From positions 1 through 64,000 of the forward strand of contig NZ_DF967973.1 of NCBI RefSeq assembly GCF_001050235.1: DNA of 64,000 nucleotides, in the 5' to 3' direction. Each line of letters opens with the position of its first letter. The first letter of the stretch is position 1. The position numbers and the translations under genes are program-made. This stretch comes from Longilinea arvoryzae (lineage in GTDB: Bacteria; Chloroflexota; Anaerolineae; Anaerolineales; Anaerolineaceae). The notes under the pieces are model-generated. The model searched no databases, was not told the origin of the DNA, and saw only the letters and a program-made list of their open reading frames with translations. Of the stretch, positions 34,686 to 48,938 are shown in pieces.

Positions 34686-36167
34686 CTACACCGCGAGTGG
34701 TAAGCGAGAATTGTCCTTGTCTTTCTCACGCAGCCAGGCGTCGATATCCGCGGCGGCGCGCTTGCCGGCGCCCATGGCGCTGATGACGGTGGCTGCGCCG
34801 GTGACGACATCGCCGCCGGCCCACACGCCGGGTTCATCCGTGCGGCCGTTGCTGGCATCCACCAGGATATTGCCCCTGGGCGAGCGTTCGACGGCCGGGG
34901 CGGCTTCCGAGGTGAGCGGATTGGCGCGCGTGCCCAGGGCCATGATGACCGTGTCGACCGGCAGGACGAATTCGCTGCCGGGGATTTCGACCGGGCTGCG
35001 CCGGCCGCTGGCATCCGGCTCGCCTAACTGCATGCGCACACAGCGCATACCGGTGACGACATTCGATACATTGACCAGGATCTCGACCGGATTGGTGAGG
35101 AAATCGAATTGGACGCCTTCATCTTCGGCGTGCTCCACTTCTTCGGCCCGGGCGGGCACTTCTTCGCGCGAGCGGCGGTAGACGACGTGAACTTCCGGTT
35201 TCTGGCTGCCCTTGCCGTCCTGATGCAGCCCGCACATGCGCAGCGCGCAGCGGGCGGCGTCCATGGCCACGTTACCCGCACCGACCACGGCGATGAATTT
35301 GCCGACATGCACCGGGGTATCGTATTCGGGGAAACGGAAGCCCTTCATCAGGTTGATGCGGGTCAGGAATTCATTGGCTGAATAGACGCCGATGGCGTTG
35401 ATGCCGGGAATGTTCATGAAGACGGGCAGTCCCGCGCCCGTGCCCATGAAGACGGCGTCGAAACCCTGCTCGTGGAGCAGTTCGTCCACCGTGTACAGCT
35501 TGCCGGCCACGCAGTCGAGATGCACTTTGACGCCCAGGCGTTCGACGTAGGCGACTTCCTTGCGCACGATTTCCTTCGGCAGACGAAATTCGGGGATGCC
35601 GTAGATCAAAACGCCGCCCGGTTCGTGCAAAGCCTCGAAGACCTCAACCGAATGACCCTGTCGCGCCAGATCGGCGGCGCAGGTTAGCCCGGCCGGGCCT
35701 GAACCGATGACCGCCACCCGCTTGCCGGTGGCAGGCGCTTTTTCGATCTGATCCTGTGAGTGCTGCAAATCCCAATCGGCCACAAACCGTTCCAAACGGC
35801 CGATGGCCACCGCGCGGCCTTTGAGGCCCAGCGTGCAGCGGCTTTCGCACTGGCTTTCCTGCGGGCAAACCCGCCCGCTGACGGCCGGCAGGTTGTTTTT
35901 TTCCTTGATGATCTGGGCGGCTTTGGCCAGATCGCCGGCGCGCAAGGCCATGATGAAGCGGTTGATGGGCACCTGTACTGGGCAGCCCTGGATGCAGGGT
36001 GTGTTCTTGCATTGCAGGCAGCGCTCGGCCTCGGCCATGGCGGTCTCCAGATCGTAGCCCAGGGCTACTTCACTGAAATTGTGGGCGCGAACGACGGGAT
36101 TTTGGAGGGGCATTTCGTGGCGCGGGATGCTCATGCGTTCTTTGACGGTTAAATTGACCTCAGTCAT
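34686..36167 (-). CDS. nfnB: NADPH-side subunit of NfnAB (GltD-like FAD protein)
   Basis: A 493-residue GltD-type protein. The N-terminal Fer4 domain has clustered cysteines (CLQCKNTPCIQGCPVQVPINRF; CPQESQCESRC), then FAD and NADPH Rossmann motifs (VAVIGSGPAGLTCAADLARQGH, VVGAGNVAMDAARCALRM) and the C-terminal AGGDVVTGAATVISAMGAGKRAA. With the adjacent NfnA it should make the electron-bifurcating NADH-dependent ferredoxin:NADP oxidoreductase. A stand-alone GltD role is less likely because the partner is 18 bases upstream. GAGGTGGATC precedes the ATG. Confidence 0.88.
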   Translation of the reverse strand: MTEVNLTVKERMSIPRHEMPLQNPVVRAHNFSEVALGYDLETAMAEAERCLQCKNTPCIQGCPVQVPINRFIMALRAGDLAKAAQIIKEKNNLPAVSGRVCPQESQCESRCTLGLKGRAVAIGRLERFVADWDLQHSQDQIEKAPATGKRVAVIGSGPAGLTCAADLARQGHSVEVFEALHEPGGVLIYGIPEFRLPKEIVRKEVAYVERLGVKVHLDCVAGKLYTVDELLHEQGFDAVFMGTGAGLPVFMNIPGINAIGVYSANEFLTRINLMKGFRFPEYDTPVHVGKFIAVVGAGNVAMDAARCALRMCGLHQDGKGSQKPEVHVVYRRSREEVPARAEEVEHAEDEGVQFDFLTNPVEILVNVSNVVTGMRCVRMQLGEPDASGRRSPVEIPGSEFVLPVDTVIMALGTRANPLTSEAAPAVERSPRGNILVDASNGRTDEPGVWAGGDVVTGAATVISAMGAGKRAAADIDAWLREKDKDNSRLPLAV

Positions 36168-36185: not shown

Positions 36186-37094
36186 TCAATCACCCGCCAG
36201 CGGCAGAACGCGCCGATTTTCCTGGCGGCGCACGGCGCTTTCCAGGTTGCAAATGTGTTCGCTCTGGTGTTCGCGGTTCCAGACCTGCATGGCTTCCTGT
36301 TCTTCCTGCGAGAAGACCTTCTTTCGGGCCAGAACGACGTCCCAGTTCACCTTGGAACCGTCGAATTCAGGCCCGTCGACGCAGGCAAAGCGCATCTGGC
36401 CGTCCACTTCCACGCGGCAGGCGCCGCACATGCCGGTGCCATCCACCATGATCGAATCCAGGCTGACATCGATGGGGGCGTCGAAGGGTTCGACGGTCTT
36501 GCAGCAGAACTTCATCATGATGGCCGGACCGATGGCCCAGACGTGACCCGTGATCCAGGGGGCCTCGAGGAGTTCGGTCAGGGGCTCGGTGACCACGCAT
36601 TTGCGGCCGCGCGAGCCGTCGTCGGTGCAGAGGATGAGTTCGTCGCACACGGCGTTCATCTTATCCTCCCAGAAGATCAGGTCGGCGCTGCGGGCGCCCA
36701 TGATGACATAAACGTAGTTGCCGGCGTCCTTCAGGGCGCGGGCGATGGGGTAGACGGGGGCGATGCCCACGCCGCCGGCCACCAGAATGACGCGGCCGCC
36801 GTACATCTTGATGGTGGAGGGCTTGCCAAGCGGCCCGACGAAGTTGCGAATGACGTCGCCGCTCTTCAGTTCACCGAGTTCGCGGGTCGATTTGCCGACC
36901 TTTTGGAAGATGACCGTCACCGTGCCCTGCTCGCGATCGAAATCGGCGATGGTCAGGGGGATGCGTTCGCAGGTTTCATCCTTGCGCAGGATAACGAATT
37001 GTCCCGGCGCCGCTTTGCGGGCGATTTCCGGGGCATCGATGATCATCAGATCGGTATTGGGCGTTAAAGATTGCTTTTCAATAATTTTGAACAT
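36186..37094 (-). CDS. nfnA: NADH-side subunit of NfnAB (ferredoxin-NADP reductase-like)
   Basis: About 302 residues: FAD-binding ferredoxin-reductase domain (PGQFVILRKDETCERIPLTIADFD), the NAD motif ILVAGGVGIAPVYPIARAL, and the C-terminal [2Fe-2S] motif GTGMCGACRVEVDGQMRFACVDGPEFD. It reversibly couples NADH and ferredoxin to NADPH with NfnB in the cytoplasm. The ATG at 37094 has GAGGTG upstream; the frame start at 37106 is less likely. It lies between the alcohol dehydrogenase gene and nfnB and is probably co-transcribed. Confidence 0.9.
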   Translation of the reverse strand: MFKIIEKQSLTPNTDLMIIDAPEIARKAAPGQFVILRKDETCERIPLTIADFDREQGTVTVIFQKVGKSTRELGELKSGDVIRNFVGPLGKPSTIKMYGGRVILVAGGVGIAPVYPIARALKDAGNYVYVIMGARSADLIFWEDKMNAVCDELILCTDDGSRGRKCVVTEPLTELLEAPWITGHVWAIGPAIMMKFCCKTVEPFDAPIDVSLDSIMVDGTGMCGACRVEVDGQMRFACVDGPEFDGSKVNWDVVLARKKVFSQEEQEAMQVWNREHQSEHICNLESAVRRQENRRVLPLAGD

Positions 37095-37221
37095 GGAACA
37101 CCTCATTTCGAAGCGGGAGGGCAGGCTCTTTCGGCTGCCCGGGTCGGCCTGGAAGGGCCGGCCGTGCGAGCCAGCTCCTCCAGGCGTTCCTTTCAGGTCT
37201 CGGATATCCTATCGATAAGTC

Positions 37222-38463
37222 TTAAGCTGCAACCGGTAAATTTTCGTACTGGATCGAGTGCATGCTGCGCTCGTAAATGCTGCGGACGATATCGCTGTTG
37301 GCGTCCACCGGTGCCAGGTCGAGGAGCATGCCCAGGGAGGGTGTCTCGCGGGCCAGGTCGGTCAGTCTTTCCAGGTCGCTCGTGGAATACCCCTCATCTT
37401 CCAGCTTGGAAGTCAGGCCGAGGGAGAACAGCCATTTTTCCACACCCACGGCCAGGCGCTTGGCTTCAGCCAGGCTGCCGTTGCCGGTCAGCCCGCTGAC
37501 GATGGGCGAGTAGATGTCCGCCAGGGTCTGGGGGACCGCCGGGTAGATGGTCTCGAGGACGGCGGGCAGCAGCATGGCCAGGCCCAGGCCGTGGGCGAGA
37601 TCGGGTTTGACGGCGCTCAGCGGGTGTTCGAGGGCATGGGTCAGGTGAAGCATGCCGTTATCGAAGGCGATGCCGGCGATGGCGGAGGCATAGGCCAGAT
37701 AGTAGCGCGCTTCGAGGTCGTCCTGTTTCTTCATGGCGCGCGGCAGGTATTTGGCCACCAGGCGAATGGTCTCTTTGGCCAGCATGATGGCGTAGGGCGA
37801 GGCAACCTTGGTGGTGGCGGCTTCGGTGACGTGGTTGATGGCATCGACCGACACGTAAGCCGTCTGGTTGGCGGGCAGTTTGGCCATCAGGGCCGGGTCA
37901 TCGATGGCATAAAGCGGATAAATGAAATCCTGGGCGATGCAGGGCTTGAAGCCCAGATCGGGGATCGACACGACTGCGAAACGATCGACTTCCGTCCCGG
38001 TGCCGTGGGTGGTGTTGATGGCAACCAGCGGAACGGCGGTCTCGGGCGCAAATTCGTAGGTGTAGAGTTCCTTGCAGTTGTGCTGCGGGTACTTCAGGAG
38101 GACGGCGACGCTCTTGCCGGCGTCGATGGGGCTGCCGCCGCCGACGCCGATGACGGCCTGGGCGCCAAACTGGCGGGCCATGGCAGCGGCTTCATCCACC
38201 TGGCGGTTGTCAGGGTTGGGGGTCACACCGTTATAAATCGTGTAGGCAATCTGACTCTTTTCGAACGCGGGCTTCATCACATCCCAGGCGCCGCACTTGA
38301 TGTAGGCGCTCTTCGAAGCAACGACGATCACTCGATCGATGCCGCGCTTCTTGAGGTCAGCGCAGATATCTTCGAACTTGTGAATGGCGCCTACACCCAG
38401 GTAGAGGGTGGTCTTGCAGCGGATTTCGCGGACTTCATGAATGTCGATCTCGTTTTCCCACAT
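37222..38463 (-). CDS. Iron-containing alcohol dehydrogenase
   Basis: A 413-residue group III alcohol dehydrogenase: VIGVGGGSPIDAGKSVA (about 104-120), NTTHGTGTEVDRFAVVS, DAINHVTEA, and HLTHALEHPLSAVKPDLAHGLGLAMLLP with metal-binding histidines. It interconverts aldehydes and alcohols with NAD(P)H, a common electron sink in fermenters. AAAGGAGAAACCAGC precedes the ATG at 38463; the longer open frame is not supported. It is the first gene of the leftward arm and carries Rex-like sites in its promoter. 127 bases with GC-rich hairpins separate it from nfnA. Confidence 0.9.
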   Translation of the reverse strand: MWENEIDIHEVREIRCKTTLYLGVGAIHKFEDICADLKKRGIDRVIVVASKSAYIKCGAWDVMKPAFEKSQIAYTIYNGVTPNPDNRQVDEAAAMARQFGAQAVIGVGGGSPIDAGKSVAVLLKYPQHNCKELYTYEFAPETAVPLVAINTTHGTGTEVDRFAVVSIPDLGFKPCIAQDFIYPLYAIDDPALMAKLPANQTAYVSVDAINHVTEAATTKVASPYAIMLAKETIRLVAKYLPRAMKKQDDLEARYYLAYASAIAGIAFDNGMLHLTHALEHPLSAVKPDLAHGLGLAMLLPAVLETIYPAVPQTLADIYSPIVSGLTGNGSLAEAKRLAVGVEKWLFSLGLTSKLEDEGYSTSDLERLTDLARETPSLGMLLDLAPVDANSDIVRSIYERSMHSIQYENLPVAA

Positions 38464-38532: not shown

Positions 38533-38554
38533 ATTCGTTATTATTTTCACGATT
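38533..38554. promoter_or_regulatory. Rex-like operator B (downstream of the ADH promoter)
   Basis: ATTCGTTA-N6-TCACGATT, an imperfect copy of the site at 38592 (11 of 16 arm bases shared with its own inverse by eye). It sits at the expected start point of leftward transcription, where a bound repressor would block the ADH promoter. Confidence 0.55.
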
Positions 38555-38560
38555 GACCGT

Positions 38561-38588
38561 ATTATAGGTCGTTTGAACCCTGAGTCAA
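38561..38588 (-). promoter_or_regulatory. Promoter of the ADH-nfnA-nfnB arm
   Basis: On the complementary strand TTGACT (38583-38588), a 16-base spacer and TATAAT (38561-38566). Rex-like sites lie immediately on both sides. Confidence 0.7.
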
Positions 38589-38591
38589 TAG

Positions 38592-38613
38592 ATTCGTGAA
38601 CTAAATCACGAAT
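38592..38613. promoter_or_regulatory. Rex-like operator A (perfect palindrome)
   Basis: ATTCGTGA-N6-TCACGAAT, a perfect 8-base inverted repeat. Its GTGA-N6-TCAC core has the same geometry as the known Rex consensus TTGTGAA-N4-TTCACAA. It lies 3 bases upstream of the -35 of the ADH promoter and between the divergent genes. Confidence 0.75.
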
Positions 38614-38691
38614 AATAATGAGCCTTTCGATCGAAATCCATATTTTTGATGAGGCCCGGCGCAAGTTTTTTCCATTTCAAAATAGGTGCGC

Positions 38692-38720
38692 TTGACAATG
38701 GGGTGCGAGATGGATAGAAT
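38692..38720 (+). promoter_or_regulatory. Promoter of the rex operon
   Basis: TTGACA at 38692-38697, exactly 17 bases, TAGAAT at 38715-38720: a near-consensus sigma-70-type promoter. The third Rex-like site begins 4 bases after the -10 box. Confidence 0.8.
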
Positions 38721-38723
38721 TGA

Positions 38724-38745
38724 ATTCGTGAAAAGATTAACGATA
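38724..38745. promoter_or_regulatory. Rex-like operator C (rex autoregulation)
   Basis: ATTCGTGA-N6-TAACGATA: the left arm is identical to operator A and the right arm is degenerate. It covers the predicted transcription start of rex. Confidence 0.6.
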
Positions 38746-38768: not shown

Positions 38769-39467
38769 ATGAAGAAGACAACGATACCCTTACCCTCCTT
38801 ACGAAGATTGTTGCTCTATTACCGGCATCTGCTCGCGGCCATCGATGCGGGCCAGGAGTATCAGTCCTCGGCCGAACTGGCCTGGACCGCGGATACCACG
38901 CCCGAACAGGTGCGTAAGGATTTGAGCTATTTGCCCAGCCAGGGACGCAGCCGGGTCGGCTACCCGACTCAGAAGCTGGCCCAGATCATCGAAGAGACCC
39001 TGAACCTGACCAGCGACAAAGATGTGCTGCTGGCCGGTGCAGGCAACCTGGGGCGGGCGCTGGCGCTCTACCCGGGCTTCAAACAATACGGCCTGAACAT
39101 CGTAGTCCTGTTCGATAACGACCCGGCCCGGGTGGGCACGCGGGTGGGCAGGCTGCAGGTGCTGCCGGTGGAAAAACTGAGCAACCTGGCAGCGCGCATG
39201 CTGATCCGGATCGGGATCATCGCCACACCCCCCGAAAATGCCCAGGACGTGGCGGATGCCATGGTGGCCGGCGGCATCAAGGCCATCTGGAATTTCACGT
39301 CCGCCCGGCTGACCGTGCCCGAGGACGTGCTGGTCAATACCATCGACCTGTCGCCGGAATTACTGGTGCTGTCGCAGTACGTTCACAACCTGGGCAAACA
39401 CCCCGGTCATTCCGAAGCCATCCCGGAACACCCGACCCTCGAGAGGGAAGGTCAGGACCCGGCATGA
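38769..39467 (+). CDS. rex: Redox-sensing repressor Rex
   Basis: A 232-residue Rex protein: N-terminal winged helix (IPLPSLRRLLLYYRHL, TPEQVRKDLSYLPSQGRSRVGY), Rossmann domain with AGAGNLGRALA and VVLFDNDPARVGTRVG, and the helix VLSQYVHNLG. Rex dimers bind DNA at low NADH/NAD and release it when NADH rises. Three matching palindromes in its own upstream region support auto-regulation and control of the divergent ADH-NfnAB arm. It starts a run of four genes whose frames overlap or touch. No strong Shine-Dalgarno sequence is seen. Confidence 0.92.
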   Translation: MKKTTIPLPSLRRLLLYYRHLLAAIDAGQEYQSSAELAWTADTTPEQVRKDLSYLPSQGRSRVGYPTQKLAQIIEETLNLTSDKDVLLAGAGNLGRALALYPGFKQYGLNIVVLFDNDPARVGTRVGRLQVLPVEKLSNLAARMLIRIGIIATPPENAQDVADAMVAGGIKAIWNFTSARLTVPEDVLVNTIDLSPELLVLSQYVHNLGKHPGHSEAIPEHPTLEREGQDPA

Positions 39468-39733
39468 GCGCGCGCATGGATCTGGTTGTATGCATGGGCT
39501 CGGCTTGTCACCAGATGGGCGCGTTTGAGGTGGTGACGGCCCTGAAAAGGTTGTTGAAAGAGCACAACCTGCAGGACGCGGTCAACCTCAAGGGCGCCTT
39601 TTGCCTGGGGGAGTGCGGCAAAGGCGTCGTTTTGGATTTCGACGGCCGGCGCATTCTTCACGTGCAACCCGATACGGTGGAGACGATTTTCGATGAAGAA
39701 ATTTTGCCCTGTTTTGTGGAAAGGAAATCCTGA
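39464..39733 (+). CDS. NuoE-like thioredoxin-fold [2Fe-2S] protein
   Basis: An 89-residue protein with the cysteine pattern of the NuoE/HydC ferredoxin family: C10-x4-C15 (VCMGSACHQMG) and C47-x3-C51 (GAFCLGECGKG). It should bind a [2Fe-2S] cluster. It starts within the rex stop codon (ATGA overlap) and so is translationally coupled. Its short length and the signalling genes after it suggest a redox partner or sensor rather than a subunit of complex I; no NuoF or NuoG is present. Confidence 0.85.
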   Translation: MSARMDLVVCMGSACHQMGAFEVVTALKRLLKEHNLQDAVNLKGAFCLGECGKGVVLDFDGRRILHVQPDTVETIFDEEILPCFVERKS

Positions 39734-40233
39734 TGGTTGAAAAATCACTTTGGGAGCTGCTGTGGGATTACGATCCAAACGGCCTGGTCGTGCTCGATCG
39801 GGATTATAAGATTCAGATCGTCAACCCTTCCTTTTGCGGACTGTTCAAACTCAAGGAAGAGGAGATCAAGGGCCGGCCGGCGGCAGAGGTCTTTGATGAC
39901 CTGAGTGATTTCGAGGCGGTCTGGGAACGCGGCGAGGTGATCAAGGGGCGCGAGCGCGAGTACCCGCGCTACGGGCTGTACCTGCGCGGCGTGTATTTTC
40001 CGGTGGTGGGGCAGGGGCTGGCGGCCTGCATTCTGGTGGACTTGACCAAGGAACACCAGCGCGCCGAGGAACTGCGCGAGGTGAAACAGGAATTGAGCAA
40101 GCAGGTCAATAAAGTGATCGACAAACAGATGAGCATTGCCCAGGAGATTGCCGGCCTGCTGGGCGAGACGACCGCCGAAGCCAAGGTCAGCCTGTTGAAA
40201 ATTCGCAATATGCTCGATTCGGAGATTCGCTAG
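39733..40233 (+). CDS. PAS-domain sensor protein without output domain
   Basis: A 166-residue protein: a PAS domain at about 8-105 (GLVVLDRDYKIQIVNPSFCGLFKLKEEEIKGRPAAEVF, GLAACILVDLTKEHQRAEEL), then a coiled coil at about 105-165. No kinase, GGDEF or DNA-binding domain follows. A single cysteine (C35) sits in the PAS core. The start overlaps the previous stop by one base (TGATG). The coiled coil probably docks on, or dimerises with, the SpoIIE-type phosphatase encoded next. Confidence 0.85.
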   Translation: MVEKSLWELLWDYDPNGLVVLDRDYKIQIVNPSFCGLFKLKEEEIKGRPAAEVFDDLSDFEAVWERGEVIKGREREYPRYGLYLRGVYFPVVGQGLAACILVDLTKEHQRAEELREVKQELSKQVNKVIDKQMSIAQEIAGLLGETTAEAKVSLLKIRNMLDSEIR

Positions 40234-41393
40234 TGAATTATTTTGGCGACATCCACACCATTTTCCTGAACAAGCACGGTGAAGAGCTGTGCGGCGATCA
40301 GGTGCGCATTCTGACCGGCGAGGAAAAAACCTGCATCGTGCTCTCGGACGGCCTGGGCAGCGGCGTGAAGGCCAACATCCTGTCGACCCTTACCTCGGAA
40401 ATCATCATCCACATGTGGCAGGAAGACGTGGCCCTGGAGGATGTGATGGAAACCATCGCCGCCACCCTTCCGGTTTGCAAGGACCGCAACCTGGCTTACG
40501 CCACCTTCTCGGTGCTCGAGATGGAACGCAAAACGGGCAAATTCCGGGCTTATAACTTCGACAATCCCAACCTTCTCTTTTTCCACCGCGGGAAGTATCA
40601 GGAACTGCCGGCCCAGATCGAGCAGATCGGCGGGCGGAAAATTCAGATTGTGACCGGGCAGGCCGCAGCGGATGATTTTCTGGCCATGCTGAGCGATGGG
40701 GTGGTCTTCGCGGGGCTGGGCACCACCCTGAACTTCGGCTGGAGCCTGCCGAAAATTGCCGCTTTCATCGAGAGACTGTTCATCTATCATCCCACCAGCT
40801 CGCGTTCGCTGGTACAGGCCACCATGGCCCACACCCGCGACCTTTACGGCGGCGAACCCGGCGACGATGCCTCGATGGTGGGCATGTTCATGCGCGCCTG
40901 CCGGACGGCCATGGTTTTTACCGGGCCGCCGCTGAACGAGGCCGATGACGACGCCCTGGCGGAACGGTTGATGAACTTCGACGGCGAGCGCATCGTGTGC
41001 GGCGGCACCACCGCCAAGATCGTCTCGTATTTCCTCGGGCAGACCGTGGAAACAGATATTTCCACCAGCCGCGAGGATGTGCCGCCGATCGGGTATCTGG
41101 ACGGGGTCGACCTGCTGACCGAGGGAATATTGACCCTCAACAAGGCGGCCGAATGGCTCGAACAGACGGACGGGGATATCAACCGGCTGCCGGTGGACCG
41201 CAATGGCGCCGTGCTGCTGGCGCGTTCGCTGTTGAACGCGGACGAGATCACTTTCATGGTCGGGCAGAAGATGAACCCGTTCTACCAGAATCCGCTCCTG
41301 CCGGTGAGCGTTTCCATCCGGAAGAGCCTGGTGGAAAAGATTACGGCGCGGTTACGGCTCTTGAACAAGCATGTGAAGGTGGAGTATTTTTAG
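40233..41393 (+). CDS. SpoIIE-type PP2C serine/threonine phosphatase
   Basis: A 386-residue protein whose N-terminal 230 residues form a SpoIIE/PP2C phosphatase: GDQVRILTGEEKTCIVLSDGLGSGVKAN, AYATFSVLEMERKTGKFRAYNFDNPNLLF, FLAMLSDGV and GEPGDDASMVGMF provide the metal-binding aspartates. The C-terminal 150 residues (from about VFTGPPLNEADDDALAERLMNFDGERIVCGGTTAKIVSYFLG) form an extra domain seen in phosphatases of this type near hydrogenase genes. It starts at GTG sharing one base with the PAS stop. Its phosphoprotein target (often an anti-sigma antagonist) is not in the window. Confidence 0.88.
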   Translation: MNYFGDIHTIFLNKHGEELCGDQVRILTGEEKTCIVLSDGLGSGVKANILSTLTSEIIIHMWQEDVALEDVMETIAATLPVCKDRNLAYATFSVLEMERKTGKFRAYNFDNPNLLFFHRGKYQELPAQIEQIGGRKIQIVTGQAAADDFLAMLSDGVVFAGLGTTLNFGWSLPKIAAFIERLFIYHPTSSRSLVQATMAHTRDLYGGEPGDDASMVGMFMRACRTAMVFTGPPLNEADDDALAERLMNFDGERIVCGGTTAKIVSYFLGQTVETDISTSREDVPPIGYLDGVDLLTEGILTLNKAAEWLEQTDGDINRLPVDRNGAVLLARSLLNADEITFMVGQKMNPFYQNPLLPVSVSIRKSLVEKITARLRLLNKHVKVEYF

Positions 41394-44600: not shown

Positions 44601-47600
44601 TTAACCCATCATCACGCAATTGCGCCCGTTTTGCTTGGCCGTATAAAGCGCCTGATCGGCGCGGGCGATCAGATGGGTGATGCCGGTCATGTCCTGGGTC
44701 ATTTCGGCCACGCCGATGCTGGCGGTGATGCGCAGCGAACCGGCCGAGGTCTCGAACGGCGCGCTGGAAATGGACTGGCGAATCCGTTCGGCCACTTTAA
44801 GGGCGTCTTCCACGCTGGTTTCGACCAGCAGAATGAGAAATTCCTCGCCCCCGAAGCGAACGGCCACATCCAGTTCGCGGATGTTGGTGCGCACGCGCTC
44901 AGAAAGCAATCGCAGAACTTCATCGCCTACCAGATGGCCGTAGGTGTTGTTGACACGCGAGAACAAATCCAGGTCGATCATCATCGCGGTAAGCGGGCGT
45001 TCGAATCGCCGGGCACGTTCGACTTCGCGTTCGCCGAATTCGTGCATGCCGCGGCGGTTGAACAGGCCGGTCATCTCATCCGTGATGGCCACGCGCTGGA
45101 TTTCTTCATAAAGACTGGCGTTGTGGAAGGCCAGCGCCAGTTGGCTGGCAAAGGTGCTCATCACGTTGCGGTCGCTTTCCTGCAGCGAACCCCACACGAC
45201 CAACAGGCCAATGGAGCGCTCTTTGACGATCAACGGCAGCAGGAACATGCGGGTTTGATCGTCGAAACCGGCCAGGCGAATCAGGACGCGCATGGTTTCG
45301 GGGTCGAGGGATGTCGACAGGCCGTAGATCTTGCGCATCGGGTCCGGAATGAAGATACCGGCCGGGTCTTCCTTGAGCAGATGCTTGAATTCGTCGCGGT
45401 CCAAGAGGCTGGCCAACTGGGAGTGGTTATTGCGCCATTCGGGGTGCGTGCGGAAGGAATAGTACTGGAGCTGCATTTCGCCGGTGGTTGAATCGGCGAG
45501 GGCGATGGCATAGGACAGGTCGAGCTGTTGGAGTTCGATTTCGAGGGTCTTGATGACGCCGCTGCTGTCGGCCGCCGCCCCGATGCGCGTAGCCACATGG
45601 TCCAGCGCGGTAAACAGGCCATTGGCGCGGGCAAGCTGGCGGGTGCGGGTGCGCTCGGCTTCCAGCAACTGGTTCTTGCTGATGCCCAACGCGACCTGCA
45701 GCGCGGCCTGCTCACCCAGCATGATTTCATTCGCGGTGAAATGGTGGGTATATTTGAAACCGATCAGCACCACCCCCATGCGGCTGCCGTTCAGGATCAT
45801 GGGCAGGGCCAGGAGCGCCCGGCAGGGGTGCAGCAACGCGGCGGCGGATTTCACATCCGGGCGGGTTGCCAGGTCTTCGATTTCCAGGGGCTGTTCCATC
45901 AGGATAAAACCGGCCAGTTCGGCATTGGAGAGCTGACCCTTGAGCCGGGTGGATTCGCCGACGATGGCGGCCACCCTGGGGAAGGATCCGTCCATATCGA
46001 AGAGCAGAATGGCAGCACTGTCGGCATTGAAAAGCGCCGTCAGGTGGTTGACCATCGGGTCGAGCATTTCGGATTGGGTGGCCGCCGAAATGGCCGCCTG
46101 GGCCATCTGGTTGAGCAGGGCAATTTGCTGGGCGCGGCGGCGAGCCTCATCGAACAGGCGTGCGTTGCGGATGGCCAGGGACGCCTGGTCGGCGAACACC
46201 TGCAGGCGTTCGGCGTGCACCTGGGTGAACAGGTCGGGTGTTACGCTGTCCACGTTCAGAAAACCGATGGTCTTCCCGTCCTGGCGAATGGGTGCGCCGG
46301 CGAAGGAACGCACCCAGTCAAAGTCGGGTTGCTGCACCCAGGTTCGATTTTCCCCGACGGCGGAGGTGATGACCGGACGCCCTTCCTTGAACATGGTGTT
46401 GAGATTGGGAATTTCAGAGACGCGGTAATGAACGTTATAGATGACGTTCGGGTTGCAGTGTTCCTCGTAACCCCGCGCCCCAATGACGCGGGTCATGCCG
46501 TTGTCGATCAGCATGATGTTGGCCGCATCCATGGGAACCACTTTTTCGACATTCGACAGCACCTGGTCGAACACTTCCTGCAGGTTCAGGCTGGCGTTGA
46601 GGGTTTCAGCCGTGTCGCGCAGCGCTTCGGCCATCTGGCGTTGGTCGCGTTCGGCCTGATAGAGTTGTTCGATCTGTTTTTCAATCTGCCGGCGCTGGAA
46701 GGCAGCCCCAAACACGTTGGCGGCGATCTTGAGGCCTTCCTTTTCGGCTATCGACCACACCGATGGGTGATCGGTATCGAAACTGATGAATCCCCAGATC
46801 TTATCTTCTGCGAATATGGAAACGATCAACATTTCCACGATGTTCAACTGGTCGAGAAGCTGCTTCATCACCTCGGGAATGTCGACTTCCCGGGTGGTGA
46901 TCACCTGATTCTTCACCAGAGTCTTCAGGAATGGGCTTAACTTTGGAATACGCTGCATTCGGGGCCACACGCTGTCCCTGAGCTCGAGTGATCCATCGCT
47001 CGACCAGTAAGCCGACATCTGCATCCCATAGGTTTCAGGGGAATCGTCGTTGAGCTGATAAATGGCGACCCGGTTAGCCTGGCTGGCGCTGCCCAAAGCC
47101 TGCAAGGCCCTTGGCAGGCTCGATTCCCAATCCGGAACGCGCAGCATATCCTCCGCGGCCAGGCTGACGGCCTCCAGAATTCGCTCGCGGTTGTGCAGCT
47201 CTTCCGAAATACGGCGGCGTTCGGTGACATCGTCGATCATGCCGATGCCATACAGCGATTTGCCCGTCAGATCGCGGACCATCGAAAGGGTCAGGTGACC
47301 CCAGAAAGGTGTGCCGTCTTTGCGCAGGTAGCGGATTTCACGCTGGGCGCTGGAAGCCCGGGTTTCGTTCAGTTCCCGCACCAGGTCCGCCGTGATGGAC
47401 CGGTCTTCGGGAAAGGTGACGTCGTCGCTGACCCGCCCGATGACCTCCTCCCGGGTATAGCCGAACATTTCGCAAATCATCGGATTGACATCCGTGATGG
47501 TATTGCCCGCCTCCAGCACCACCGTGCCGATACCGGCGTTTTCGAAGGTGGAACGAAAACGCCGTTCGCTGTCCACCAATTCTTTTTGGATGCGCTGCCG

Positions 47601-48938
47601 CTCGAGGATGTTGGTATAAATTTCAGCCAACAACTGCAACGAGCGAATATCGCCCTCCTGCCAGACATGCAGGCTGGTCAGGGTGCTGATGGCGAAATAA
47701 CCGATGGCGTTGTTTTCCAACACCAGCGGAATGGCCACCAGGGAAAACGCGTCTCCATCTTTCCAATAATCGCGCTCGGCTCCGGCCTCTATCGGAAGAT
47801 TGGTGACGGATGGGATGGTCAGCACCTGGTGATTCCGAATTTGAGCGGCAATCCAGGGGAATTGGGCAAAATCCAGGCCGATGTAAATGTGGTGCATGGT
47901 CGAACCGTTCTTCGACCATTGGTAGAGATCCTTGACGACCACAGACCCGCTTTGAAAAGTGACCAGAAAGGAGCGCTCGGCGTCCAGGAATTCGGCAATT
48001 CGTTTCAGCGAGGCCTGCAGATTGTGGGTGATATCGTGATCGGGGGTGTCGATGAAATGGCTGGAGATCTCCGAAATGAGGTGTTCCAATTCGAGGCGGC
48101 GCTTCAATTCTTCATTGGCCTGCCGGATTTCGGTGATCTCCAGGTTGCTGGCGCGCCGGCCCTGAAACGCTCCGTTGGTATCGTAAACCGGCTGGCAAAT
48201 GTGCCGCAGCCAGATGACTTTCCCATCCGCTCGCCGAATGCGAAGGTCGATCTGGTGGATCGGGCTTTGGCCCTGGGTAAGCGCAAAATGCTCGAGCAGC
48301 GCCGGGCGGTCCTCCTCCAGGGTCAACTGCCAGAGCATGTTGGGATTGTCCATAAAGATATCCGGCGAATAGCCGGTCATGCGCTGCACGGAGGGCGAAG
48401 TGTAGATCATGCGCCCGTCCGGCCCCTGCCAGGCTTCCCAGTTGTAGGTCAGATCCGCCATGGACCGGAAGCGCAGTTCGCTTTCGCGCAGCGCCAATTC
48501 GCTCTTCTGGCGCTCCTCAAGTTGGCGTTGGGTTTGCAGGGTGAGCGAGCGCATATATCCGACCATACCGCCGCTGATCAGCAGGGTGAGCGCGTTGAGC
48601 AGAAAATCCCCGCTGACGATGCCCAATAAATTGGTCTGATAATTTTGGCCCAGGAAATATAGCTCGAGACAGGCCAACAGGAATGCGGCGGAGATCCCTC
48701 CGCCCAGGCCAAGCAGACCGGCCGCAATGACCACAACGAGGATCGAAACGGCCAGGGTGCCGCCGTCCAGATTGGTATGATTATGGGTGAAATAAACGCT
48801 GAAGATGCCGAGGATAAAGGCAATAATGAGCATTCGCTGCCAGACGGGCAGGCGAAGCATTTTACGCAGCAGTGAGACGGCGAAGTTAGCTCTGACAGAT
48901 GTGTAATTCTGCATGCGGTCCGCCGGTATGGGGCCCAT
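44601..48938 (-). CDS. Membrane multi-PAS/GAF diguanylate cyclase
   Basis: A 1445-residue sensor. Membrane helices lie in about 34-130. Then come PAS (150-275), GAF (285-450), PAS (455-575), four more GAF-like regions (about 585-750, 770-930, 945-1090, 1105-1265) and a C-terminal GGDEF domain (1275-1445). The active site is FGGEEF near 1360, and an RELD I-site lies five residues before it, so it should make cyclic di-GMP with product inhibition. Five stacked GAF domains are unusual; they could bind nucleotides, heme or small ligands. The start is uncertain: MQNYTS at 48914 is an alternative, and neither has a clear ribosome-binding site. Confidence 0.88.
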   Translation of the reverse strand: MGPIPADRMQNYTSVRANFAVSLLRKMLRLPVWQRMLIIAFILGIFSVYFTHNHTNLDGGTLAVSILVVVIAAGLLGLGGGISAAFLLACLELYFLGQNYQTNLLGIVSGDFLLNALTLLISGGMVGYMRSLTLQTQRQLEERQKSELALRESELRFRSMADLTYNWEAWQGPDGRMIYTSPSVQRMTGYSPDIFMDNPNMLWQLTLEEDRPALLEHFALTQGQSPIHQIDLRIRRADGKVIWLRHICQPVYDTNGAFQGRRASNLEITEIRQANEELKRRLELEHLISEISSHFIDTPDHDITHNLQASLKRIAEFLDAERSFLVTFQSGSVVVKDLYQWSKNGSTMHHIYIGLDFAQFPWIAAQIRNHQVLTIPSVTNLPIEAGAERDYWKDGDAFSLVAIPLVLENNAIGYFAISTLTSLHVWQEGDIRSLQLLAEIYTNILERQRIQKELVDSERRFRSTFENAGIGTVVLEAGNTITDVNPMICEMFGYTREEVIGRVSDDVTFPEDRSITADLVRELNETRASSAQREIRYLRKDGTPFWGHLTLSMVRDLTGKSLYGIGMIDDVTERRRISEELHNRERILEAVSLAAEDMLRVPDWESSLPRALQALGSASQANRVAIYQLNDDSPETYGMQMSAYWSSDGSLELRDSVWPRMQRIPKLSPFLKTLVKNQVITTREVDIPEVMKQLLDQLNIVEMLIVSIFAEDKIWGFISFDTDHPSVWSIAEKEGLKIAANVFGAAFQRRQIEKQIEQLYQAERDQRQMAEALRDTAETLNASLNLQEVFDQVLSNVEKVVPMDAANIMLIDNGMTRVIGARGYEEHCNPNVIYNVHYRVSEIPNLNTMFKEGRPVITSAVGENRTWVQQPDFDWVRSFAGAPIRQDGKTIGFLNVDSVTPDLFTQVHAERLQVFADQASLAIRNARLFDEARRRAQQIALLNQMAQAAISAATQSEMLDPMVNHLTALFNADSAAILLFDMDGSFPRVAAIVGESTRLKGQLSNAELAGFILMEQPLEIEDLATRPDVKSAAALLHPCRALLALPMILNGSRMGVVLIGFKYTHHFTANEIMLGEQAALQVALGISKNQLLEAERTRTRQLARANGLFTALDHVATRIGAAADSSGVIKTLEIELQQLDLSYAIALADSTTGEMQLQYYSFRTHPEWRNNHSQLASLLDRDEFKHLLKEDPAGIFIPDPMRKIYGLSTSLDPETMRVLIRLAGFDDQTRMFLLPLIVKERSIGLLVVWGSLQESDRNVMSTFASQLALAFHNASLYEEIQRVAITDEMTGLFNRRGMHEFGEREVERARRFERPLTAMMIDLDLFSRVNNTYGHLVGDEVLRLLSERVRTNIRELDVAVRFGGEEFLILLVETSVEDALKVAERIRQSISSAPFETSAGSLRITASIGVAEMTQDMTGITHLIARADQALYTAKQNGRNCVMMG

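Follow-up and report, generated by a model that had tools for sequence, protein, structure and literature searches.

Rex repressors of Firmicutes, Thermotoga and other bacteria control their regulons through the operator TTGTGAA-N4-TTCACAA (PMC6391272, PMC8376106). The NAD+-bound form represses and NADH releases it, and in solved complexes an arginine together with a lysine or arginine of helix 3 reads the two G of GTGA (PMC8836258, PMC8376106). Two further described systems are close to the locus reported here: the rex-crt1-bcd1-etfB1A1-hbd1-nfn operon of Clostridium kluyveri, in which Nfn is under Rex control (reviewed in PMC6405883), and the HydS architecture of Thermotoga maritima, in which a hydrogenase carries a C-terminal PAS domain (PMC10055695).

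We analyzed a window of 64,000 nucleotides of the Longilinea arvoryzae genome, in which an adh-nfnAB operon diverges from a rex operon that also encodes a signalling module. The locus resembles known Rex regulons (PMC6391272, PMC8376106) in repressor family, palindrome length, GTGA-N6-TCAC core, putative rex autoregulation and putative alcohol dehydrogenase control, but differs from them in a C instead of T before GTGA, in the presence of a second, hydrogenase-clade Rex (Rex2) and in having no excess of sites beyond the locus. Unlike in C. kluyveri, where nfn shares one operon with rex and butyrate genes, adh-nfnAB here faces away from rex, and its partner is a PAS-phosphatase module. This module follows the gene order of HydS-type operons (rex, optionally adh, [2Fe-2S] protein, PAS, SpoIIE) with homologous PAS and phosphatase, yet it lacks the hydrogenase portion of HydS and has NfnAB-ADH as its neighbour instead. 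Since Rex control of nfn is known from C. kluyveri (PMC6405883), the metabolic logic is not new; what stands out is that a signalling operon without hydrogenase is the partner and that the predicted operators are spelled CGTGA. On the sequence evidence set out below, we consider it highly probable that Rex2, by predicted binding to three palindromes, forms a divergent switch with negative autoregulation over adh-nfnAB and its own operon.

Candidate operator sites and promoters of the adh/rex gap

The start codons of the leftward adh and the rightward rex are separated by an intergenic gap of 305 bp. The features of the locus, in window coordinates, are:

34686..36167, minus strand: NfnB, NfnAB large subunit (4ylf_B, E 3e-162; 5jca_L, E 9e-141)
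36186..37106, minus strand: NfnA, NfnAB small subunit (5jca_S, E 1e-88; 4ylf_A, E 8e-78)
37222..38463, minus strand: iron-containing alcohol dehydrogenase, 413 aa (Pfam PF00465/PF25137; Fe-ADH matches in PDB; 76% identity to the relative L005)
38533..38554, no strand: site 1, ATTCGTTATTATTTTCACGATT, palindrome ATTCGTTA-TTATTT-TCACGATT with 2 mismatches
38561..38588, minus strand: adh-nfnAB promoter, TTGACT (38588-38583)-N16-TATAAT (38566-38561)
38592..38613, no strand: site 2, perfect palindrome ATTCGTGA-ACTAAA-TCACGAAT
38692..38720, plus strand: rex operon promoter, TTGACA (38692-38697)-N17-TAGAAT (38715-38720)
38724..38745, no strand: site 3, ATTCGTGAAAAGATTAACGATA, palindrome ATTCGTGA-AAAGAT-TAACGATA with 3 mismatches
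38769..39467, plus strand: Rex2, redox-sensing repressor of the hydrogenase-linked clade (PF06971 and PF02629; NF003994 at 220 bits, cut-off 130; Rex matches in PDB; tree)
39464..39733, plus strand: thioredoxin-like [2Fe-2S] protein, 89 aa (PF01257; counterparts in the corresponding position of other HydS-type operons)
39733..40233, plus strand: stand-alone PAS protein, 166 aa (PAS families; equivalent to the C-terminal PAS of HydS)
40233..41393, plus strand: SpoIIE-type PP2C phosphatase, 386 aa (PF07228; full-length homologues beside HydS and HydABC)

The three palindromes have exactly the positions and sequences given in the original prediction, and its two divergent promoters were likewise borne out, each matching the sigma-70 consensus at 11 of 12 positions, with an imperfect -10 (TAGAAT) on the rex side. 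The sites had been placed at the -35, -10 and start positions; they do lie beside the promoter boxes, but sites 1 and 3 are downstream of the -10 elements and site 2 is upstream of the leftward -35. Site 1 covers the adh-nfn start region directly downstream of the leftward -10, site 2 adjoins the upstream side of the leftward -35 with its centre near -48, and site 3, which begins 3 bp after the rightward -10, covers the rex start region. Such positions, downstream of or flanking sigma-70 boxes, fit a repressor. Together, the sites define a GTKA-N6-TMAC palindrome whose GTGA-N6-TCAC core is exact in site 2; sites 1 and 3 each deviate from this core once. The remark that CGTGA stands where the usual Rex site has TGTGA is correct for all three sites, with C before GTGA in six of six half-sites.

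Chance palindromes are rejected by genome count and by simulation. Exact matches to TYGTKA-N6-TMACRA number six in the 4.44-Mb genome (three for the reversed-pattern control), of which three fall inside the single 213-bp stretch of sites 1 to 3, and none of 200,000 Markov-model gaps (305 bp, same dinucleotide statistics) had even two motif matches; a weaker test, the window-wide scan with three mismatches allowed, gave at least three matches in 2 of 100 shuffles. With one mismatch allowed, the whole genome holds 57 matches versus 72 for the reversed control and thus no excess, which leaves a wide Rex2 regulon in L. arvoryzae unsupported. Only one exact match outside the locus, before rubrerythrin, is in a plausible promoter position; this sequence, TTGTGAGCTTTGTCACGA (G000:C1:248375-248392; L170:2976-2993), lies ca. 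96 bp upstream of the rubrerythrin-like gene and may be due to chance. As only sites 1 to 3 stand above chance in the genome, Rex2 looks like a local regulator in L. arvoryzae.

Identity of Rex2 and its relationship to Rex1

The gene adjoining the sites had been called a Rex, and its Pfam and PDB matches and an NCBIfam score above cut-off agree. Rex2 combines an N-terminal winged helix with a C-terminal Rossmann domain and aligns to solved Rex structures over nearly the whole chain. Its GAGNLG, ALALY and IDLS motifs correspond in the alignment to GAGNIG, Tyr100 and Asp191 of T. maritima Rex, so that GxGxxG is kept together with the Tyr and Asp that serve in NADH sensing (PMC8836258), and the two GTGA-reading residues of helix 3, Arg and Lys, are retained as well.

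L. arvoryzae encodes two Rex proteins. Rex1, encoded close to the genes for ATP synthase (L140), clusters with the Rex of most sampled Anaerolineae; we saw no operator site at its gene, and Rex1 autoregulation was dropped as a candidate. Across a well-supported split (99/91), Rex2 falls into a clade that spans many phyla, in which its own group (99/98) consists of five sequences from Anaerolineaceae. This clade is usually encoded beside [FeFe]-hydrogenases: 80 examined loci, nearly all of them in the Rex2 clade, include 41 with a HydA-like [FeFe]-hydrogenase match within ca. 6 kb and 14 with a SpoIIE phosphatase. Recurrent gene orders are rex-adhE-[2Fe-2S]-HydS-SpoIIE and [2Fe-2S]-PAS/HydS-SpoIIE-HydCBA-rex.

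Conservation of the sites in relatives

A scan of related genomes found the sites conserved next to rex, as the original prediction demanded. In an Anaerolineaceae metagenome-assembled genome (L005; same genes as G386:C65), nfnB-nfnA-adh faces rex-PAS-spoIIE, and sites are found at matching places (ATTCGTTACTGTTTTCACGAAT for site 1, then TTTTCGTGCAATTTTTCACGAATT and TTTGTGAAATAATTAACGAT) around the promoters TTGACT-N16-TATACT, between the first two sites, and TTGACT-N17-TATAAT, before the third. The spacing of sites 1 and 2 is 59 bp in both genomes, and the two differ by 50 bp in how far away site 3 lies. When the two gaps are aligned globally, sites 1 and 2 show identity at 35 of 44 positions versus 71 of 158 in the rest of the aligned gap; site 3 is misplaced in that alignment and was hence compared directly.

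Further afield, Ornatilinea apprima (L006; G014) has a rex gene on its own with ATCGTGAAAATAATCACGAT after TTGACT-N17-TACAAT as well as TCGTGATATAATTCACGA in front of adhE. Another member of the Anaerolineaceae (G015, L134) has rex-PAS-spoIIE with ATTGTGAAGTTTGTCACGAA after TATAAT and, in front of an adhE-like gene, a pair of TTGTGA-type sites spaced by 65 bp, and G386 carries TTGTGAAATTTTTCACAA at the adhE start. The core of the Ornatilinea rex site, CGTGAAAATAATCACG, recurs as an identical copy in a different phylum, after the -10 of a hydrogenase-rex operon of Thermosipho; it is the sole CGTGA-N6-TCACG match in that genome, where it follows TTGACT and TAAAAT boxes in front of an operon that ends in rex. 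Two Thermotogota hydrogenase promoters (L200 in G410 and L197 in G411) each carry a tandem pair of overlapping Rex-like sites with an offset of 14 bp.

The position of site 3 after the rex -10 is thus repeated in L005, Ornatilinea and G015, and also upstream of hydrogenase-rex operons in Thermotogota, while sites 1 and 2 are conserved in one relative, L005. It could be argued from this wider conservation of the autoregulatory site that site 3 alone is the working operator, that the other two sites contribute little and that adh-nfnAB is not truly under Rex. We think this improbable, given that sites 1 and 2 are more similar to L005 than the sequence outside them, that they flank a conserved promoter at an unchanged spacing, and that adhE carries such sites where nfn is no neighbour. 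The proposal of one Rex sensor over both arms is supported by site conservation and Rex identity, with the adh-nfn side resting on one relative.

A regulator of the CRP/FNR family as the true ligand is similarly improbable. The CRP consensus is TGTGA-N6-TCACA, its core is identical to that of our sites, and site 2 lies upstream of a -35. However, sites 1 and 3 are on the downstream side of the -10, a position from which activators do not act, the outer base of the sites is C where CRP has T, and the sites track rex, adhE and hydrogenase promoters over two phyla. That Rex1 rather than Rex2 is the main binder is likewise improbable. The genome does encode Rex1, with a canonical recognition helix, but no such sites accompany Rex1 genes, and related sites stand beside Rex2-clade genes, also in Thermotogota, which are without the Chloroflexota Rex1. 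Rex2 is thus our preferred binder of the three sites, and Rex1 could bind them in addition.

Operator spelling and the recognition helix

Rex2 of L. arvoryzae, L005 and Ornatilinea as well as the Rex of four Thermotogota/Dictyoglomota loci have a Glu three residues before the helix-3 Arg, a helix position that is Ala, Ser, Thr, Ile or Val in other Rex sequences. In a hand count that includes some Thermotogota promoters found with a C-biased pattern, and whose sequences are not independent because the Glu type may go back to no more than one or two origins, C precedes GTGA in 23 of 32 half-sites at promoters of Glu-type Rex versus 1 of 20 at others (Fisher 2e-6); by genome, CGTGA occurs in six of six Glu types versus one of eight others (Fisher 0.005). 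Counter-cases are a Ser-type Rex (L029) with a near-site bearing C and an Ile-type Rex (L023) with a one-mismatch candidate bearing C. The association is suggestive of a specificity change in which the CGTGA operator goes with Glu in the recognition helix. Direct reading of base 4 by this residue (Glu47 in S. agalactiae numbering) is doubtful because Ala47 of the S. agalactiae complex is near base pairs 6 and 7, and the Rex2 wing GRSRVGY (versus GKRGVGY) is an equal candidate for the specificity determinant.

The adh-nfnAB operon

The leftward operon encodes, in this order, the alcohol dehydrogenase and the small and large subunits of NfnAB, the latter as two adjacent genes that are each homologous to a subunit of solved NfnAB. 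The dehydrogenase has VASK at the position of VTDK in 1,3-propanediol dehydrogenase. The Asp of this motif in Fe-ADHs is thought to favour NAD, so its absence hints at the use of NADPH. No full bifunctional AdhE that could be under Rex2 was found in the L. arvoryzae genome, which has separate aldehyde and alcohol dehydrogenase matches only.

A HydS-type signalling operon without hydrogenase

The genes of the rightward operon (rex, [2Fe-2S] protein, PAS protein and SpoIIE phosphatase) each overlap the next by 1 to 4 bp. The PAS protein aligns to residues 409-558 of a HydS-like protein of 558 aa from G330 (E 7e-22); in G330 and G271 the matching region is the last 150 residues of proteins of 558-566 aa that begin with an [FeFe]-hydrogenase. 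The window's protein consists of PAS only, without the PF02906 hydrogenase domain of HydS, and neither a PF02906 match nor another [FeFe]-hydrogenase was found in the L. arvoryzae genome. Four genomes with a stand-alone PAS (G000, which is L. arvoryzae, G015, G005 and G199) have no PF02906 match anywhere, G386 has a stand-alone PAS and one hydrogenase elsewhere in the genome, and in genomes with the fused form the hydrogenase is part of the module. Homology between the SpoIIE partners extends from end to end, and the Asp positions of the metal-binding motifs (CGD, SDG, DG, DD) are conserved in nine aligned sequences. A planctomycete locus (L023) shows the same order rex-[2Fe-2S]-PAS-SpoIIE followed by a hydrogenase-like match.

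With PAS and SpoIIE homologous to those of HydS systems and no hydrogenase present, the signalling genes of the rex operon look like what remains of a hydrogen-sensor system after loss of the hydrogenase, namely its output half. What had been broadly termed a redox-signalling operon is thus indeed a signalling module, and can be identified more closely as the [2Fe-2S]-PAS-SpoIIE segment of a HydS-type operon. An independent tie between this module and Nfn comes from G271, where HydS-SpoIIE directly follows nfnAB: the order nfnAB-[2Fe-2S]-HydS-SpoIIE (L142:2507-8312) stands beside a LysR-type gene with no Rex nearby, and Nfn and the HydS module are linked there under another regulator.

Two further observations concern signalling proteins of the window. 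The C-terminal extension of the SpoIIE phosphatase (40900-41393), with GPP, CGGTT, EG[IV][IL]T and YQNP-type motifs, is conserved in these operons and has no Pfam match. On the minus strand at 44601-48938, a 1445-aa protein reads by sequence and BLAST neighbours as a multi-sensor (PAS/GAF-like) diguanylate cyclase.

A model of the switch and its implications

In the switch that we propose, NAD+-bound Rex2 on site 3 would repress its own operon and, on sites 1 and 2 at either side of the adh core promoter, would repress adh-nfnAB. A rise in NADH would release Rex2 and turn both operons on. Nfn would then form NADPH from NADH and reduced ferredoxin, and the alcohol dehydrogenase might spend reductant on an aldehyde and so relieve the NADH excess. 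The [2Fe-2S]/PAS/PP2C module probably responds to some redox signal that is not H2, and would dephosphorylate a partner. A broader reading, which we rate as less likely than not, is that a Rex subfamily shifted its operator from TGTGA to CGTGA along with the helix Glu. In this lineage it would govern a circuit of its own, where the output module of a hydrogen sensor, minus the hydrogenase, would convey the redox state of the cell to a phosphatase in parallel with NfnAB.

A base pair and an amino acid residue that appear to covary across Chloroflexota and Thermotogota would offer a sharp test of how Rex reads DNA. A module that seems to have kept PAS and phosphatase after the loss of its hydrogenase may allow signal and target to be searched for where H2 sensing by the protein is ruled out. 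For the Anaerolineaceae, the locus suggests how the NADH, NADPH and ferredoxin pools may connect to alcohol formation.
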